IMG/VR virus record: IMGVR_UViG_3300019927_000129
Location: 1-37,596 of that record
Source of the DNA: a virus
Direction: 5' to 3' (one strand)
Length of the DNA stretch: 37,596 bases
The notes beneath the pieces were generated by a model. It saw only the letters and a program-made list of their open reading frames with translations, did not search any database and was not told where the DNA came from. This document shows, piece after piece, positions 8,321 through 27,523 of the stretch (its first letter is position 1; each line of letters opens with the position of its first letter). The position numbers and the translations under genes are program-made.

Positions 8321-8905
8321 ATGATACTCGAAGAGATGATCCTTTCAAACCCGGTAGCTGCATCGGCACTCACAATCATCCTCATCATCGCGGTCGCGTA
8401 CCTCCGCAAGGTCGGCCCGCGGCGAGCAATTGCTGCGGAAACCGTCCGGAACATCGCTCAGCCGCTGGCAGAGCGCCGGCTCTCGGACGACATCCGGAAG
8501 CTGACACGACGTAAAGCGCTCCCTCACCACAGTGGCGAGTACGTCACCAGCGTCGACGTCGGCCTGCTCACGCTCGCGAAAGGGCTCTGGTCGTTCGGCT
8601 TCCGCTGGAATCCCATATCGACGAAGAAGTATCGAGTCATCGACGGCTCGAAACAATACGCCGTCCTCTCGGTCGCGCTGCGGGAGTCATTGGTGGCCGA
8701 CGCGCAACTCCACGCTTACGTCTTCCCCGCGCCGCAGTCCTCAGGCTATGACGTTTACGCCCATCTTGAGGCGAACGTGACCGACCCTGCCGATCACAGT
8801 GGCGGCGGGGAGCAAATTGCTGGTGACCCTGACGGAGCCCTTCTCAACGCGCTTTCCGAGGCCGATATCGGACACGAGCGACGCCCCCACTCCCCTCCGG
8901 CCTGA
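8321..8905 (+). CDS. Membrane-anchored hypothetical protein at the end of the tail operon
   Basis: A 194-residue protein with a single N-terminal hydrophobic segment at about residues 10-28 (ASALTIILIIAVAYL). A basic juxtamembrane region and a soluble domain of about 150 residues follow. It is the last + strand gene of the structural module, and its stop (8903-8905) is two bases before a long inverted repeat. I do not recognise the family. The anchor suggests a host-membrane protein made late, possibly for release or exclusion, but nothing in the sequence decides this. Confidence 0.65.
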   Translation: MILEEMILSNPVAASALTIILIIAVAYLRKVGPRRAIAAETVRNIAQPLAERRLSDDIRKLTRRKALPHHSGEYVTSVDVGLLTLAKGLWSFGFRWNPISTKKYRVIDGSKQYAVLSVALRESLVADAQLHAYVFPAPQSSGYDVYAHLEANVTDPADHSGGGEQIAGDPDGALLNALSEADIGHERRPHSPPA

Positions 8906-13782: not shown

Positions 13783-13958
13783 TACGAGTCACCACCCTCC
13801 GACCGTTCAGTAGCCGAGTTTACACAGCGTTCATGAGCTACATCGTAGTTCCCAACAGATACGAAATTATCTCTTTCAAGAACTCTGTAGCCACAGAAGT
13901 TACAGACTGCGGGCCTTTCTCCGTAATCAGTCCCGTGCGAAGATTGATCACTCGGCAT
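13782..13958 (-). CDS. Small zinc-finger protein
   Basis: A 58-residue protein starting at ATG 13958 with a Cys19-x2-Cys22 and His42-x2-Cys45 arrangement (CNFC ... HERC), a treble-clef-like zinc site. The longer frame to 14051 only reads through the neighbouring gene in another frame. Its stop overlaps the CoiA-like start by one base and its start lies inside the end of the upstream 50-residue gene, so the operon is tightly coupled. Function is unknown; DNA or protein binding is the usual role of such domains. Confidence 0.65.
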   Translation of the reverse strand: MPSDQSSHGTDYGERPAVCNFCGYRVLERDNFVSVGNYDVAHERCVNSATERSEGGDS

Positions 13959-14100
13959 CGTGCCCCTCCTCGCGGAACAGCTGCAGTCGGCCAGCGTCGC
14001 TCTCGGCGAGCGCGTGGATGTCGCCATCGGTGTCGCGATAGCCGAGCACAAGACTCCGCGCGCTCTCGGGCGGCAAGTAGAGGTCGACGTCAGGCTGCAT
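13948..14100 (-). CDS. Small acidic hypothetical protein (50 residues)
   Basis: ATG 14100 to TGA 13948-13950. The peptide starts MQPDVDLYLPPESARSLVLG and has a normal acidic haloarchaeal composition. It overlaps the next gene by 11 bases and the previous one by 11, and the whole operon is built from such overlaps, which supports that it is translated. No motif is visible. Confidence 0.6.
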   Translation of the reverse strand: MQPDVDLYLPPESARSLVLGYRDTDGDIHALAESDAGRLQLFREEGHDAE

Positions 14101-14179
14101 CGTCAGCCTCCTCGTAATCAGTTAGCGCGTTCTGCTCCTCGTTCCATCGCGGGTCGTTGAAATCAGTCTGGTCTGTCAT
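14090..14179 (-). CDS. Tiny acidic protein (29 residues)
   Basis: ATG 14179 to TGA 14090-14092, beginning MTDQTDFNDPRWNEEQ and ending in an acidic tail. Start and stop both overlap neighbouring genes of the reverse operon. The strong acidic bias fits a real haloarchaeal peptide, but the length gives little statistical support. Confidence 0.45.
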   Translation of the reverse strand: MTDQTDFNDPRWNEEQNALTDYEEADDAA

Positions 14180-14441
14180 TGTCTTTCCGTGGGTCGTCGA
14201 CGAACCGGTACAGGCCGCGGTAAGGCTTCTCTACCCAACCAGCACCGAGCAGGCCATCCATAGCGCGGCTCACGTACTGTTTCCGGAGGTCCGTCTCCTC
14301 AGTGAACCGCTTGACAGTGGCATATCCCCACGGCTCGTCTCGATCGCGGCCGTCGGTCAGCACTGCAAGGAGTTTCTCCTGCCGGTCGGTCGGGTCGAAG
14401 TCTTCATTGACCATACCGGTCGAGAGTGGTCGTTGTCCCAT
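14163..14441 (-). CDS. Winged-helix DNA-binding protein
   Basis: A 92-residue protein with a winged-helix core: helix RQEKLLAVLTDG, then YATVKRFTEETDLRKQYVSRA as the helix-turn-helix, then MDGLLGAGWVEKPYRGLYRF as wing strands. The start is ATG 14441; ATG 14414 would remove 9 residues. It is the first gene of the reverse operon that ends with the CoiA-like nuclease, so it is a candidate regulator of that operon. Palindromic GTTAC/GTAAC sites lie 30-70 bases upstream (14470-14512) and could be its operators. Confidence 0.7.
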   Translation of the reverse strand: MGQRPLSTGMVNEDFDPTDRQEKLLAVLTDGRDRDEPWGYATVKRFTEETDLRKQYVSRAMDGLLGAGWVEKPYRGLYRFVDDPRKDNDRPD

Positions 14442-14461: not shown

Positions 14462-14512
14462 CATTACAATAACAGTTACGACCAAACTACTACTGGCTGT
14501 TACAACGTAACA
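14462..14512. promoter_or_regulatory. Divergent promoter/operator region with GTTAC palindromes
   Basis: TATTGTAATG on the minus strand (14462-14471) lies about 26 bases before ATG 14441 and can act as a TATA element. TAACAGTTA (14470-14478) and the perfect TGTTAC-AAC-GTAACA (14498-14512) are palindromes typical of dimeric regulators. The same GTAAC core recurs in the origin candidate at 24.2-24.4 kb. Confidence 0.5.
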
Positions 14513-17076: not shown

Positions 17077-17154
17077 ATGACAACGGAGACCACCAGAATC
17101 ACGGTCGAGAACCGACTTAAGACTATTCCCACGGCCTCGGAGGGCGATGCCTGA
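17077..17154 (+). CDS. Possible 25-residue leader peptide before pcn
   Basis: ATG 17077 to TGA 17152-17154, sharing its last base with the PCNA start (TGATG). The peptide begins [17 protein letters not shown]. Its close coupling to the clamp gene is the main support. It may control PCNA translation or be a small protein in its own right. Confidence 0.4.
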
Positions 17155-17897
17155 TGTTCGCGGCGACCACCCGCGCAGAGGCACTAACCGATGCCCTCAA
17201 TCCCGTCAGTGCGCTCGTCAACGAGTGCAAAATCCACATTCCAGAAGACTCACTGGAAATCCGAGCGGTCGATCCCGCCAACGTCGGCATGATCGACATG
17301 ACGCTGTCCGCAGAGGCGTTTGAGTCCTACCAAGCCGACGGCGGCGTCCTCGGCGTCAATCTTGAACGGCTGCTGGACGTCGTCGGCATGGCCGACGATG
17401 ACGACCTCGTCCACCTCCAGCTTGACGAGGAAACTCGCAAACTCCACATCGACATCGACGGCCTGTCGTACACGCTCGCGTTGATTGACCCCGAGTCCAT
17501 TCGCGAAGAACCCGACATCCCCGACCTCGACCTGCCGTGCATGACCGTCATCAAAGGCCGGGACATCTCCCGCTCCGTGACGGCGGCCGACATGGTCAGC
17601 GACCACGTCCGACTCCACTCCGACGGCGACGCGTTCTATGTCAGCGCCGAAGGCGACACCGACGACGTCAAGCAAACGCTGACGCCAGATGACCTCCTGA
17701 CGCCAGTTGGGCCGCTGGCGGACGCGGACTCGCTGTTCTCACTCGACTACCTCGAGGACATGGCCAGCGTGATGAGCGCCGACACCGAGGTTCGGATCCA
17801 GCTCGGCGAGGAGTTCCCCGTCAAGCTGCACTACGACATCGTTGACGGCGCCGGTCAGGTCACGAACATGCTCGCGCCGCGGATTCAGTCGGAGTAA
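17154..17897 (+). CDS. pcn: DNA sliding clamp PCNA
   Basis: A 247-residue archaeal proliferating cell nuclear antigen, the ring that tethers polymerase and other enzymes to DNA. The typical pattern runs the full length: an N-terminal helix ([19 protein letters not shown]), the first-domain sheet with [13 protein letters not shown], the interdomain linker around DLDLPCMTV, and the second domain ending with [10 protein letters not shown] and an acidic [12 protein letters not shown] terminus. The length matches cellular haloarchaeal PCNA, so the gene was probably taken from a host. With the viral primase-helicase it indicates that the virus loads its own clamp; no viral DNA polymerase is visible, so host polymerase is probably recruited. 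Confidence 0.96.
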
Positions 17898-21264: not shown

Positions 21265-21481
21265 TCGACAGCAACACTTATGCGTCGGCCCTGTTAACAC
21301 GGTTAACACAGCAGCCGCTCACAACACACAAAACGCCGACCGCGAGAAAACGACCCTGCTGACGACAGGGTCAGCGGTCGGCGTTACCCGAATAAGCATG
21401 AGACACTACAACGCCACCGCTGTTAATGATTCCGGTTGTACAGTCGATAAACGAGTTGCTACTCTGGGAGCGGGTCGGTAA
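21257..21481 (+). CDS. Doubtful 74-residue reading frame upstream of the primase
   Basis: ATG 21257 overlaps the previous stop and the TAA (21479-21481) shares one base with the primase ATG, which is what a coupled gene would do. However, the protein is not acidic, has many Asn and Thr, and most of its frame is occupied by repeats (GTTAACAC at 21293-21300 and 21302-21309) and a large hairpin (21332-21385). The stretch may be regulatory and not coding, or both. Confidence 0.35.
   Translation: MSNRQQHLCVGPVNTVNTAAAHNTQNADREKTTLLTTGSAVGVTRISMRHYNATAVNDSGCTVDKRVATLGAGR
21332..21385 (+). promoter_or_regulatory. Two-tier perfect hairpin upstream of the primase gene
   Basis: The outer stem AACGCCGACCGC (21332-21343) pairs over 12 bases with GCGGTCGGCGTT (21374-21385). 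Inside it, GACCCTG (21352-21358) pairs over 7 bases with CAGGGTC (21366-21372) around a 7-base loop. It lies 96 bases before the primase start. Such a structure could end upstream transcripts, regulate primase translation or extrude from DNA near a replication gene. Confidence 0.7.
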
Positions 21482-24186
21482 TGAGTGACTACGAAAACAT
21501 CCCGGAAACGCTCCGAGATCGCGAGCAGTGGCTCTATTGGAACGGCTCGAACGATACGCCACGAGCTCCGCTGGATAGCCCAAACGCCGAGTACGGTTGT
21601 TCGTGGCCCGATCCGGAGACATGGCTGCCGTTCGATGAGGTGCAGGAGAACGCCCAGAAGGTTCCTGACGCTGGCATCGGATTCGTCAACGCGAGAGATA
21701 ACGACGACTACGCGCGGGGGCTCATCGGCTCGATCGACATTGACGGTGCGGCGGACGATGACGGCCGCGCTCGGGATTGGGTGCCGTCACTCGCACCGTT
21801 CTCCGAGCGAGATGCCTATCAGGAGTGGTCGCCAAGCGAGCAGGGGCTCCGAATACCCGTCATCGGCCTCGACGTGCCGGAGTGGTGGTCGGATTTCGAC
21901 AACATCGACGGCGAACACAAGGGCGTTGAGGTTCTGACAAACAAGTTCTCGACCTACACGGGTAACAAGCTCCGCGGCTCAGGCGATGCGGTCGTGGAAT
22001 ACGGCGACTGGTTGGACGACTGGCTGCGCGAAGTCTACAAGGAGCTTGAGGGCGAGGACCCGCTGGCTGACGACAGTGTCGACAGCGACGCCGACGAGTA
22101 CACGACAAACGACGAGTGGTTAACCGAGGAGGCGGCCGAGGAGGCCTTGGAGGCAATCAATGCCGACTGTGGATACGATACGTGGAAAGATGTCGGTATG
22201 GCGCTGGTCAACCACTTCGGGACTGCCCGCGGTGGTTCGTTGTTCAAGCAGTGGAGTCGTAGCGGAACAAAATGGGACAGCAGCGCTGAAGACCAAGCCG
22301 AGCGAATCATCAGCGACGCCTCAAATTACAACTATGACGCTGGCACGCTTGTTCATCACGCCACCAGCCACGGCTGGGATGCGAGTGCGGCGGCACGCGA
22401 GTACGGCAGTGCGACACGGTCTGACGGAGGCGCGACGGCCGTCTCACCATCCGAGATCGAGACCGAGCAGCCAGAGTCACCTGATCGGCGCGACTGGACG
22501 GTGGATCCTGTCAGTGTGCTGGAGCTCGCAGCTCGAGACCCGCTACACCCGCTTGACTATGATGATGAGGGTGGGTTCGACGGTTCCATACGGGACATCC
22601 GAACCGCCGAGCGGGCTAACTACGTCTGGCAACTCGCGAAGAAGACCGGGGATGACGACATCCTCGCCCAGCACAAGGGCCCGATCTATTCTTATCAGGA
22701 CGGCGTCTGGCGCGACGATGACGGCGAGCGGATGCGCCAGATAGCTGGCCAGTCCCTCGACATCGGGTTCTCAAAAGCCGTTGTCAATGAGCTTGAGGAG
22801 CAGGTTCGAAAGGACCGGATGAAGCGACCAGACGAACTCGGGGCGCCAGATGCTACTATCATGTGCGAGAACGGTTTGCTGGACCTCTTGACCAAGGAAG
22901 TCACACCGGCCAAGCCTGACCATCACGCGCTCGCGAAGATACCAACAGAATATAACCCCGACGCGGACTGTCCGCGGTGGGAGGAGTTCGTCAATGAGTC
23001 AGTGGATACTGAGGAGGAACGGCTGAAGCTTCAGGAGTACGCAGGCTACACGCTCTGGCGGCACTCGCAGGACTTCGGCAAGGCGATGTTCCTCGTCGGA
23101 CCCACCGACTCGGGGAAAGGGACAGCTTTGAAGGCGCTCAAACAGGTGCTCGGACGAGACAATGTCGCGGCGGAGTCACTGCACGACCTGATCCAAACAC
23201 GCTGGGGGACGGCACAGCTGTACGGCAACATCGCCAACGTTCGAAACGAGGTGACACCGTCAGGCCTTGGTGAGGTGCAGAAGTTCAAGGAACTTACCGG
23301 CGGCGAGGACGAAGTCTCGGCCGAGTTCAAGGGCCAAGACAAGTTCCAGTTCGTCGTCACACAGAAATTTCTGTTCTCGACTAACGAAGTGCCGACCATC
23401 CAGAACGCCGACGAAGCGTTTTACAACCGCCTATTGTTCGTACGCTTCCCGAACACTGTCCCACCAGAAGAACAGGACAAGCAACTGCTCGATAAGCTCG
23501 CTGAGGAAAAGTCGGGTATTCTCAACTGGATGCTCGAGGGCTTGGAGCGTCTCCTTGAGCAGGGGCAGTTTACCGGCGAACGGACGACGACTGGCAAGAA
23601 AGAAATCTGCGACGCGTTTGGTGGTGTTATCGACCGTTTTGTCCACAACTGCCTGATGGTCACCGGCGATGAAGAGGACGCTGTCTCTAAAAGTGACCTG
23701 CACGATCTCGCGAAGGCGTACGCTGACGACATTGACAAAGAGCCTGAATGGAACAAGCAGTCCGGCTTCACCCAGCAGATCGGCAACCAGCGCGGTATCA
23801 GCCAAGGGCAGAAGCGAATTGAGGGGCAGAACAACAAGGTGTTCGTCGGTGTCCGTGTCAAGCCTGAATTCGTTTACCGGTACGACATGGACATCAAAGC
23901 TGTCAGTGGGTCGAACGACGACACACGGAACAACGGCCTCAACAACTATCGCGACGACGACGTCCGACCTGGCTACGATTCCTCACAGGAAACTGACGTC
24001 TGCGCGCTCATCCTGAAAACCGTTCGTGCCTACGACGGCGCACACGGGATGCCTCACGACGAGCTCGTTGACGAACTCAACAGTCGCGGCCTCGACGAGG
24101 ACACCGCGGAGTCGAAGATCAGGAAAGTTCGCCACGAGCGTGGAGACATCTTTGAACCAGAGTCCGGCCACTACCGCGTAACGTAA
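21481..24186 (+). CDS. Primase-helicase (D5/P4-type superfamily 3)
   Basis: A 901-residue multidomain replication protein. The N-terminal 1 to about 200 has a primase-like SIDIDG acidic motif (residues about 82-87) and EQGLRIPV. A PriCT-2-like helical domain is at about 220-300 (YDTWKDVGMALVNHFG). A D5_N-like linker follows, then an SF3 ATPase with Walker A GPTDSGKGT (540-548), the stretch NIANVRNEV and sensor FLFSTNEVP (Asn635). The C-terminal part of about 830-900 is a winged helix (MPHDELVDELNSRG). Such proteins start and unwind replication forks in viruses and plasmids. The start is a TAATG overlap. Together with the repeats just downstream it marks this as the replication locus. Confidence 0.93.
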   Translation: MSDYENIPETLRDREQWLYWNGSNDTPRAPLDSPNAEYGCSWPDPETWLPFDEVQENAQKVPDAGIGFVNARDNDDYARGLIGSIDIDGAADDDGRARDWVPSLAPFSERDAYQEWSPSEQGLRIPVIGLDVPEWWSDFDNIDGEHKGVEVLTNKFSTYTGNKLRGSGDAVVEYGDWLDDWLREVYKELEGEDPLADDSVDSDADEYTTNDEWLTEEAAEEALEAINADCGYDTWKDVGMALVNHFGTARGGSLFKQWSRSGTKWDSSAEDQAERIISDASNYNYDAGTLVHHATSHGWDASAAAREYGSATRSDGGATAVSPSEIETEQPESPDRRDWTVDPVSVLELAARDPLHPLDYDDEGGFDGSIRDIRTAERANYVWQLAKKTGDDDILAQHKGPIYSYQDGVWRDDDGERMRQIAGQSLDIGFSKAVVNELEEQVRKDRMKRPDELGAPDATIMCENGLLDLLTKEVTPAKPDHHALAKIPTEYNPDADCPRWEEFVNESVDTEEERLKLQEYAGYTLWRHSQDFGKAMFLVGPTDSGKGTALKALKQVLGRDNVAAESLHDLIQTRWGTAQLYGNIANVRNEVTPSGLGEVQKFKELTGGEDEVSAEFKGQDKFQFVVTQKFLFSTNEVPTIQNADEAFYNRLLFVRFPNTVPPEEQDKQLLDKLAEEKSGILNWMLEGLERLLEQGQFTGERTTTGKKEICDAFGGVIDRFVHNCLMVTGDEEDAVSKSDLHDLAKAYADDIDKEPEWNKQSGFTQQIGNQRGISQGQKRIEGQNNKVFVGVRVKPEFVYRYDMDIKAVSGSNDDTRNNGLNNYRDDDVRPGYDSSQETDVCALILKTVRAYDGAHGMPHDELVDELNSRGLDEDTAESKIRKVRHERGDIFEPESGHYRVT

Positions 24187-24228: not shown

Positions 24229-24409
24229 TGTAACGGTTTTTCTGCCGATGTAACGGTCCCCCGTTACAGACTTACCGCCGCGCCGTATGGCTGTTTCTCT
24301 ATTGTTGTAACGATGTAACGGTTTGCTTCATATCTTTCGCGTACGAGTCGCGCGCACACGCCCGCGCACACACGGAGCCGAAGCGGGACAGAGACCGTTA
24401 CATCGTTAC
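24229..24409. repeat. TGTAACGGT repeat cluster, candidate replication origin
   Basis: TGTAACGGT occurs at 24229-24237, 24249-24257 and 24314-24322, with close variants at 24306-24313 and inverted at 24261-24268. The 16-mer GTAACGATGTAACGGT (24307-24322) is repeated as a perfect inverted copy at 24394-24409, 71 bases away. The array starts 43 bases after the primase-helicase stop. Paired and tandem iterons next to a replication initiator gene are the normal look of plasmid and viral origins. That these are bound by the primase-helicase or by the viral winged-helix proteins is inference. Confidence 0.7.
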
Positions 24410-24633
24410 GCCATCCGCCCACCATTATCCGACGACTCAACGCACGCGCGACCTGACACGCTGTCCACGGCTCTGGTGGTACCGCTGGGTAACATTTAAC
24501 ACGACAACGATCGTCTATTCATATGGTGAGCGGTGGTCTTGCCTGGCGGCACACGCCGTCGGCACCACTGTTTTTGCGAGACGTCGATCGACGAGCGACA
24601 GCTGCGGTTCGCTTCCGTTGACGGCCACCGTCT

Positions 24634-24676
24634 CTTAACCAACACGCGGTCAGGGGGCGCCCTGCTGTTGGTTAAG
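24634..24676. repeat. Dispersed long inverted repeat, copy 3
   Basis: CTTAACCAACA (24634-24644) and TGTTGGTTAAG (24666-24676) are perfect 11-bp arms with a 21-base spacer (23 between the 9-bp cores, one less than in the other copies). It lies 34 bases before the TATA box of the packaging module. Confidence 0.9.
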
Positions 24677-24680
24677 TATT

Positions 24681-24694
24681 GTTAACCGGTTAAC
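24681..24694. promoter_or_regulatory. 14-bp palindrome GTTAACCGGTTAAC before the late promoter
   Basis: A perfect palindrome between inverted repeat copy 3 and the TATA element, built from two inverted GGTTAA units that also form part of the long repeat arms. It is a likely operator for a dimeric regulator of the packaging module. Confidence 0.6.
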
Positions 24695-24710
24695 CACGGC
24701 TCCGGTGGAA

Positions 24711-24719: not shown

Positions 24720-24851
24720 CCCCGGGCGCGCGTACGTGTGAACAACTCCCCGACAGTCACGGCACCAGCCCGCGAGGGCCGGTCGCGGTCGCCGCCCGCG
24801 ATCGCCACGACGACCCCGAGAGTGGGATGAGGTCGGGGGACTCTTTTCGTT

Positions 24852-27136: not shown

Positions 27137-27269
27137 CAAGCTCGAATCCTCCGACGTCGACTGCCGGAAGTACTACCAGTGTGACCACTGCGACGCTGTC
27201 CGCGCGACTGAGGAGGGGCTTGAAAACCATTACCAGCTCAAGCACTCGGCCGAGGTGAGCGACGAGTGA
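27126..27269 (+). CDS. C2H2 zinc-finger microprotein (47 residues)
   Basis: ATG 27126, with a classical finger Cys19-x2-Cys22-x12-His35-x4-His40 (CDHCDAVRATEEGLENHYQL, then KH). The gene overlaps both neighbours. Such single-finger proteins are common in haloarchaea and their viruses and probably bind DNA. Confidence 0.7.
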   Translation: MPGNKLESSDVDCRKYYQCDHCDAVRATEEGLENHYQLKHSAEVSDE

Positions 27270-27523
27270 CCAACCCCGTTATCGCACTGGTCGAGAACCC
27301 GTCCGCCGCGCTTGCGGATGCCGGCTGGGCGCTGATTCTGCTGGCGGCGCTCGTCGCGACGTGGTGGGCGGCCGGTCGGAACCTTCTCTGGCTCGACGAC
27401 CGCTGGCGCGACGGGTGGCTGTTCCTGCCGCCGCTCGGGTACGCGGCCCGGACGGTAGCGCTGCTGATCGTCGTCGCGATCGACTGCTGGCTGCTGGCAG
27501 CGCTTGTCGCACTCCTCGGCTGA
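27266..27523 (+). CDS. Multi-span small membrane protein
   Basis: An 85-residue protein starting at GTG 27266 (GTGA overlap). Hydrophobic segments are at about 20-38 (GWALILLAALVATWWAAG), 48-60 and 62-84 (RTVALLIVVAIDCWLLAALV), giving two or three membrane spans. With the gene at 26804 it forms a pair of small membrane proteins directly before the terminase, a candidate holin/antiholin-type pair. No sequence motif proves this. Confidence 0.6.
   Translation: MTNPVIALVENPSAALADAGWALILLAALVATWWAAGRNLLWLDDRWRDGWLFLPPLGYAARTVALLIVVAIDCWLLAALVALLG

Follow-up and report, generated by a model that had tools for sequence, protein, structure and literature searches.

The repeat cluster that follows the primase-helicase gene at positions 24229-24410 is very probably the DNA replication origin of a virus of salt-loving archaea. 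We assign a probability of about 0.85 to the joint reading that this region is the origin of a haloarchaeal tailed-virus-like genome and that replication is initiated there through the protein of the upstream gene, by the mechanism proposed below. This reading rests on a cluster found nowhere else in the genome and far denser than expected by chance, on the same place and layout in relatives, on iterons that change with the protein, and on the fact that experimentally supported origins occupy the same position in PICIs and in the plasmid pRN1. The window analysed here is a whole IMG/VR record (IMGVR_UViG_3300019927_000129; 37,596 bases), and a 99-bp direct terminal repeat at its ends indicates that the map is probably circular or permuted, with a length of ~37.5 kb.

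Seven GTAACG units, four on the plus and three on the minus strand, lie within 24229-24410, which bears out the claim of the first-pass annotation that at least six repeat units occur within 180 bases. Exact TGTAACGG occurs five times in the window, always inside 24229-24402, compared to 0.53 on average and at most 3 over the whole window in 100 dinucleotide-preserving shuffles. The two variant units that complete the seven are TGTAACGA (24306-24313) and CGTAACGA (24403-24410, minus strand). Similarly, TGTAAC is found at six sites in 180 bp, far above the three or fewer per 180-bp stretch obtained in 100 order-3 Markov simulations, and all six TGTAACG sites of the window are at 24229-24402. 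As also claimed, the cluster starts just after the replication gene, with 42 bases separating the end of the stop codon (24186) from the first unit. Iterons 1 and 2, both TGTAACGGT on the plus strand (24229-24237 and 24249-24257), are followed by iteron 3, a TGTAACGG unit on the minus strand and thus inverted relative to iteron 2 (24261-24268). Iterons 4 and 5 form a tandem TGTAACGA-TGTAACGGT on the plus strand that constitutes the left arm of a dyad (24306-24322), and after a centre of 71 bp (24323-24393) iterons 6 and 7 are inverted on the minus strand as its right arm (24394-24410). The perfect 16-bp inverted pair reported earlier was recovered at 24307-24322 and 24394-24409 with 71 bp between, and the resulting dyad of 103 bp (24307-24409) is the longest inverted repeat of the window when gaps of up to 200 bp are allowed.

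The upstream gene (21481-24186, plus strand) encodes a primase-helicase of 901 aa, which is the candidate initiator. Pfam and matches to solved structures indicate an architecture of a Prim-Pol-like N-terminus, PriCT_2, D5_N, DUF5906 (an SF3-type helicase) and a C-terminal winged helix: residues 13-170 match three solved chains titled 'Primase' (7rr3, 7rr4 and 6a9w), the portion with the helicase matches the 'DNA primase' 7ola (E 8e-10), and the 75 C-terminal residues match the archaeal MCM C-terminal domain 2ma3 (E 0.05). Primase motif II reads SPSEQGLR in the window, with a histidine at the last position in relatives having the motif; the codon of residue 124 is CGA (21850-21852), encoding arginine, whereas histidine occupies this place in relatives with an SPS..GxH motif. 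This difference may reflect erroneous base calls or may mean that the active site of the primase is impaired, and since motif II of the window is without its histidine, priming may depend on the host. The genome also encodes a PCNA-like sliding clamp at 17154-17897 (Pfam PCNA_N and PCNA_C), and a PCNA-like clamp gene likewise lies upstream of the primase gene of the relative CGphi46. An Rfam search of the window returned no RNA family.

The C-terminal domain (23965-24183, plus strand), the candidate iteron reader, was examined by Pfam, AlphaFold2 and Foldseek. It matches MCM_WH_arc with an E-value of 0.0011, a match that does not reach the curated cut-off; a single-sequence AlphaFold2 model contains three helices and two strands (HHHEE, pLDDT 77); and Foldseek ranks MCM winged helices first and second, with E-values that are not significant alone. 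The domain is thus predicted to be a winged helix resembling that of archaeal MCM, with weak support at the sequence level, and it is likely the part of the protein that reads the iterons. A natural chimera (L071) points in the same direction: its helicase is of the CGphi46 type (44% identity over about 980 residues), whereas its C-terminus is close to that of the window (z 9.5-9.7, versus 1.1 to CGphi46), and its iteron period is 8 bp as in the window, compared to 9 bp in CGphi46. The combination of a window-type C-terminus with a window-type iteron period, albeit in a single case, suggests that the C-terminal domain is the reader.

Comparison with relatives, proposed by the first-pass annotation as a check of its candidate origin, supports that proposal, since the cluster persists in relatives that share this primase, and in more distant ones the dyad persists while its iterons differ. 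For example, HRTV-DL1 (OP630575) encodes a full-length homologous protein (54% identical) and carries TGTAACGG units on both strands directly after the primase gene, with all eight TGTAACG sites of the whole record at 27176-27472. The CGphi46 protein (NC_021537) shares only its first 307 residues with the window protein (64%), the helicase domain being unrelated, and its primase gene is directly followed by GTAACAT/GTAACATCC units; all seven TGTAACA sites of that record are at 13893-14149. In both of these viruses, the two nearest virus relatives, the homologous primase gene is thus immediately followed by a dyad of the same kind. Such layouts also occur in haloarchaeal proviruses and plasmids. 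Among homologues sampled from 394 haloarchaeal genomes of the class and 171 of one family, inverted iterons follow the homologous gene as GTAACATCC (L007), GTAAAACG (L071), GGTCAGGG (L008 and L078), GTAACAC (L077, after a small ORF), GTGTGCAGGG (L080) and ACCGGTGGGG (L082 and L084). A uniform dyad score, evaluated against 30 shuffles per locus, exceeded all shuffles in ten loci, among them the window and the ORFS31B locus of OP630575; their inner gaps span 49-101 bp. For L078 and for L077 a single shuffle reached the same score, and in L095, L078, L077 and L082 the score was equalled by one tile elsewhere. Nine other homologous loci had no significant dyad in the stretch scanned, which for L073 reached the contig end.

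The second primase of OP630575, ORFS31B (1053 aa), resembles the first only in the helicase part (22%) and is followed by GTCCTGAC iterons in place of TGTAACGG. This record comprises two related half-genomes and carries two replication modules that differ in their iterons. More distantly, the same layout was found in a Halomarina plasmid (56-bp gap), Salinibacter pSR11 (92), Mycobacterium phage Bryler (95) and Streptococcus phage Javan389 (90), and an IMG/VR phage contig with a Prim-Pol/SF3 gene (L096) has an inner pair, GTAACGATGTAACG, identical to that of the window. No comparable dyad followed the gene in Salinibacter phage M1EM-1, Morganella phage Henu15 or plasmids L103, L104, L106 and L108. 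The repeats, the dyad, the gene order, the conserved geometry and the change of iterons with the protein are all computed observations; across the sequences compared, the iteron sequence changes together with the replication protein while the geometry stays. Packaging, partition and recombination sites can be intergenic repeat clusters too, and the cluster could in principle be one of these; we regard this as highly improbable given that it travels and changes with the primase-helicase and also follows such genes in plasmids (pSR11 and Halomarina).

Several further features of these records were observed. The 66-kb HRTV-DL1 record (L094 and L095) contains repeated structural genes and two different primase modules and may join two virus variants, and one 27.5-kb Haloglomus contig holds two related primase-dyad modules (L008 and L078) about 8 kb apart, both with GGTCAGGG-type iterons. 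Protein scans of IMG/VR identified no relatives of the primase-helicase, nor did a first genome scan. Searches of IMG/VR with TGTAACGG tandem and dyad patterns returned phages, several with primase or helicase genes adjoining the repeats; the pattern GCCGTCTTGCGGTTTTC gave unrelated matches. TGTAACGG or TGTAACGA iterons are present in eight phage contigs (L057, L059, L061, L062, L067, L069, L096 and L098), in several of which they lie beside unrelated replication genes (a Zn-ribbon primase-helicase, an AAA_25 helicase or Prim-Pol/SF3), and the GTAACG unit therefore recurs across different initiators. In two of them (L057 and L069), GTTACAACGTAAC lies beside the TGTAACGG repeats.

An origin of the haloarchaeal Orc1/Cdc6-ORB type was also considered; no ORB was found at 24.2 kb, and the ORB pattern gave only two short ORB-like cores in the window, near 8610 and 27970. 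The alpha protein of phage P4 is a fused primase-helicase with a C-terminal DNA-binding domain that acts on iterons, and the window protein is likewise a fused primase-helicase with a C-terminal candidate DNA-binding domain. It differs from alpha in that its N-terminus matches the Prim-Pol chains 7rr3/6a9w and not Toprim, and the window differs from the ori-crr arrangement of P4 in that its genome contains no second TGTAACG cluster. The P4 primase, which is of the Toprim type, has been discussed previously (PMC4234260).

The symmetrical layout itself has been described previously for bacterial phage satellites. In PICIs the origin is found directly 3' of the initiator gene; it consists of two iteron sets around an A+T-rich region, drives plasmid replication and has iterons that differ between members (PMC6092414). 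The window resembles this pri-rep-ori organization of PICIs and SaPIs in having its origin candidate directly 3' of the primase gene and two iteron sets (the 16-bp inverted tandem pair) flanking a centre of 71 bp. It differs in that the centre, which contains an alternating tract, has 63% G+C rather than being A+T-rich, in that the genome is that of an archaeal virus-like element, and in that the protein's N-terminus matches Prim-Pol chains. Replication of the Sulfolobus plasmid pRN1 requires an origin that lies 3' of a primase-SF3-winged-helix gene and forms a stem-loop of ~100 bp (21-nt stem, 58-nt loop); according to the authors of that study, this origin has no iteron structure (PMC4234260). 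The window shares with pRN1 a protein that combines a primase, an SF3 helicase and a C-terminal winged helix (the last weakly supported), followed by the 103-bp dyad, but the dyad arms of the window are tandem iterons among seven GTAACG units. Since one defining feature of each system is absent (the A+T-rich centre of PICIs and the lack of iterons of pRN1), we do not class the window as a member of either, although by analogy its origin very probably works like theirs.

The pRN1 parallel raises the question of whether the origin works through DNA structure, namely a cruciform or a stem-loop (16-bp stem, 71-nt loop) that is recognised in the manner of pRN1, rather than through the iteron sequence as such. 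The dimensions of the 103-bp dyad match those of the pRN1 origin, whose sequence is poorly conserved while its folding is conserved, and the authors extend their proposal to some bacteriophages (PMC4234260). Nevertheless, the arm units of the window also occur outside the stem, in direct and inverted orientation (24229, 24249 and 24261), and iteron sequences are common to related proteins; a pure hairpin needs neither, and we consider a purely structural origin unlikely.

The centre of the dyad is close in base composition to the window as a whole (63% G+C compared to 62%), and only 16 bp (24323-24338) are A+T-richer, with 31% G+C. It contains the two longest alternating CG/CA/TG runs of the window, which are prone to Z-DNA (24349-24361 and 24363-24374). 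By this measure, which was defined after the sequences had been seen, the longest run of the whole sequence falls in the dyad centre in all three virus genomes (window, 24349; CGphi46, 14010; DL1, 27331), as does the longest run within the 5.2 kb read of pSR11. An alternating centre is not a universal feature, since A+T-richer centres were found in L008, L078, L077, L095 and L082; either kind of centre could serve as the opening site. A tentative and rather doubtful extension is that in viruses and plasmids of halophiles, both this lineage and salt-in bacteria (e.g., Salinibacter pSR11), an alternating tract that forms Z-DNA in the centre of the dyad replaces the A+T-rich unwinding element, in keeping with intracellular salt near saturation, and that the iterons are read by a winged helix like the one in the archaeal replicative helicase MCM.

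Outside the arms, GCCGTCTTGCGGTTTT or close variants flank the dyad symmetrically, pointing outward on both sides, in DL1, CGphi46, L007, L008 and the Halomarina plasmid. In contrast to the clear copies in DL1 and CGphi46, that of the window is degenerate: a single copy with four mismatches lies at 24282-24297 on the plus strand, and chance copies with four mismatches occur elsewhere in the window too. Examination of 394 haloarchaeal genomes for GCCGTCTKGYGGTTTT yielded 55 matches in 51 genomes, compared to none for the reversed pattern. Among 30 loci inspected, GCCGTCTKGYGGTTTT lies 17-18 bp outside an iteron dyad in three (L122, L137 and L116, the last being the L008 locus) and separates a primase-like gene from a gene weakly similar to helicases in four (L117, L123, L127 and L134); many others are in ordinary gene contexts. 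GCCGTCTKGYGGTTTT is thus a conserved haloarchaeal element present at several replication modules and in many other places (L109-L138, L005-L008 and L107). It is able to fold into a short hairpin with T's behind it and may therefore act as a terminator or as a priming signal.

Groups of inverted sites close to the starts of genes are a typical sign of operators, and the cluster could instead be bound by a repressor, or by the primase itself, and so regulate either the primase gene or the genes starting near 24827 at the level of transcription. However, the sites are 3' of the primase gene and several hundred bases ahead of the next long ORF, and neither a conserved centre of 49-101 bp nor an iteron type that tracks the replication protein is expected of operators; we judge this reading very unlikely, although autoregulation may occur on top of origin function. 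A separate GGTTAA-rich inverted repeat at 24634-24695 does resemble an operator. This second patch near the putative origin comprises an 11-bp inverted repeat without mismatches (CTTAACCAACA/TGTTGGTTAAG) together with additional GGTTAAC palindromes, sits just ahead of a possible TATA box, and may be the operator for the genes that start near 24827. The first-pass annotation had also pointed to GTAAC-core palindromes at 14470-14512 and hinted at a protein shared with the iterons. The palindrome TGTTACAACGTAACA is real (14498-14512, the sole TGTTACNNNGTAACA in the window) and lies in the gap between two divergent genes, one of which encodes a MarR-like winged-helix protein (14163-14441, minus strand); upstream of this gene, it is placed like an ordinary operator. 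The shared protein was rejected because the arrangement GTTAC-N3-GTAAC is opposite to that of the iterons and no counterpart was found in the genomes of the two virus relatives.

The detrended GC skew of the window has a minimum near 20.6 kb and a maximum near 6.0 kb, and its amplitude is low; there is no clear switch at 24.3 kb, and the signal is too weak for placing an origin. No origin appears in the portions consulted of the features displayed for OP630575 and NC_021537 or of the DL1 paper, and our literature searches found no paper on such an origin for a haloarchaeal tailed virus.

In the proposed mechanism, the upstream gene's protein would bind the TGTAACGG iterons through its C-terminal winged helix, and copies on the two inverted iteron sets would place opposed SF3-type helicase rings across the 71-bp centre. 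These rings would open the dyad centre, priming would be carried out by the fused Prim-Pol domain or by the host primase, and theta replication would start with the host polymerase and the virus's own PCNA-like clamp. The winged-helix binding, the opening at the centre and the bidirectional start are inferred. The matched sets of C-terminal domains and iterons provide a route to decoding initiator specificity.
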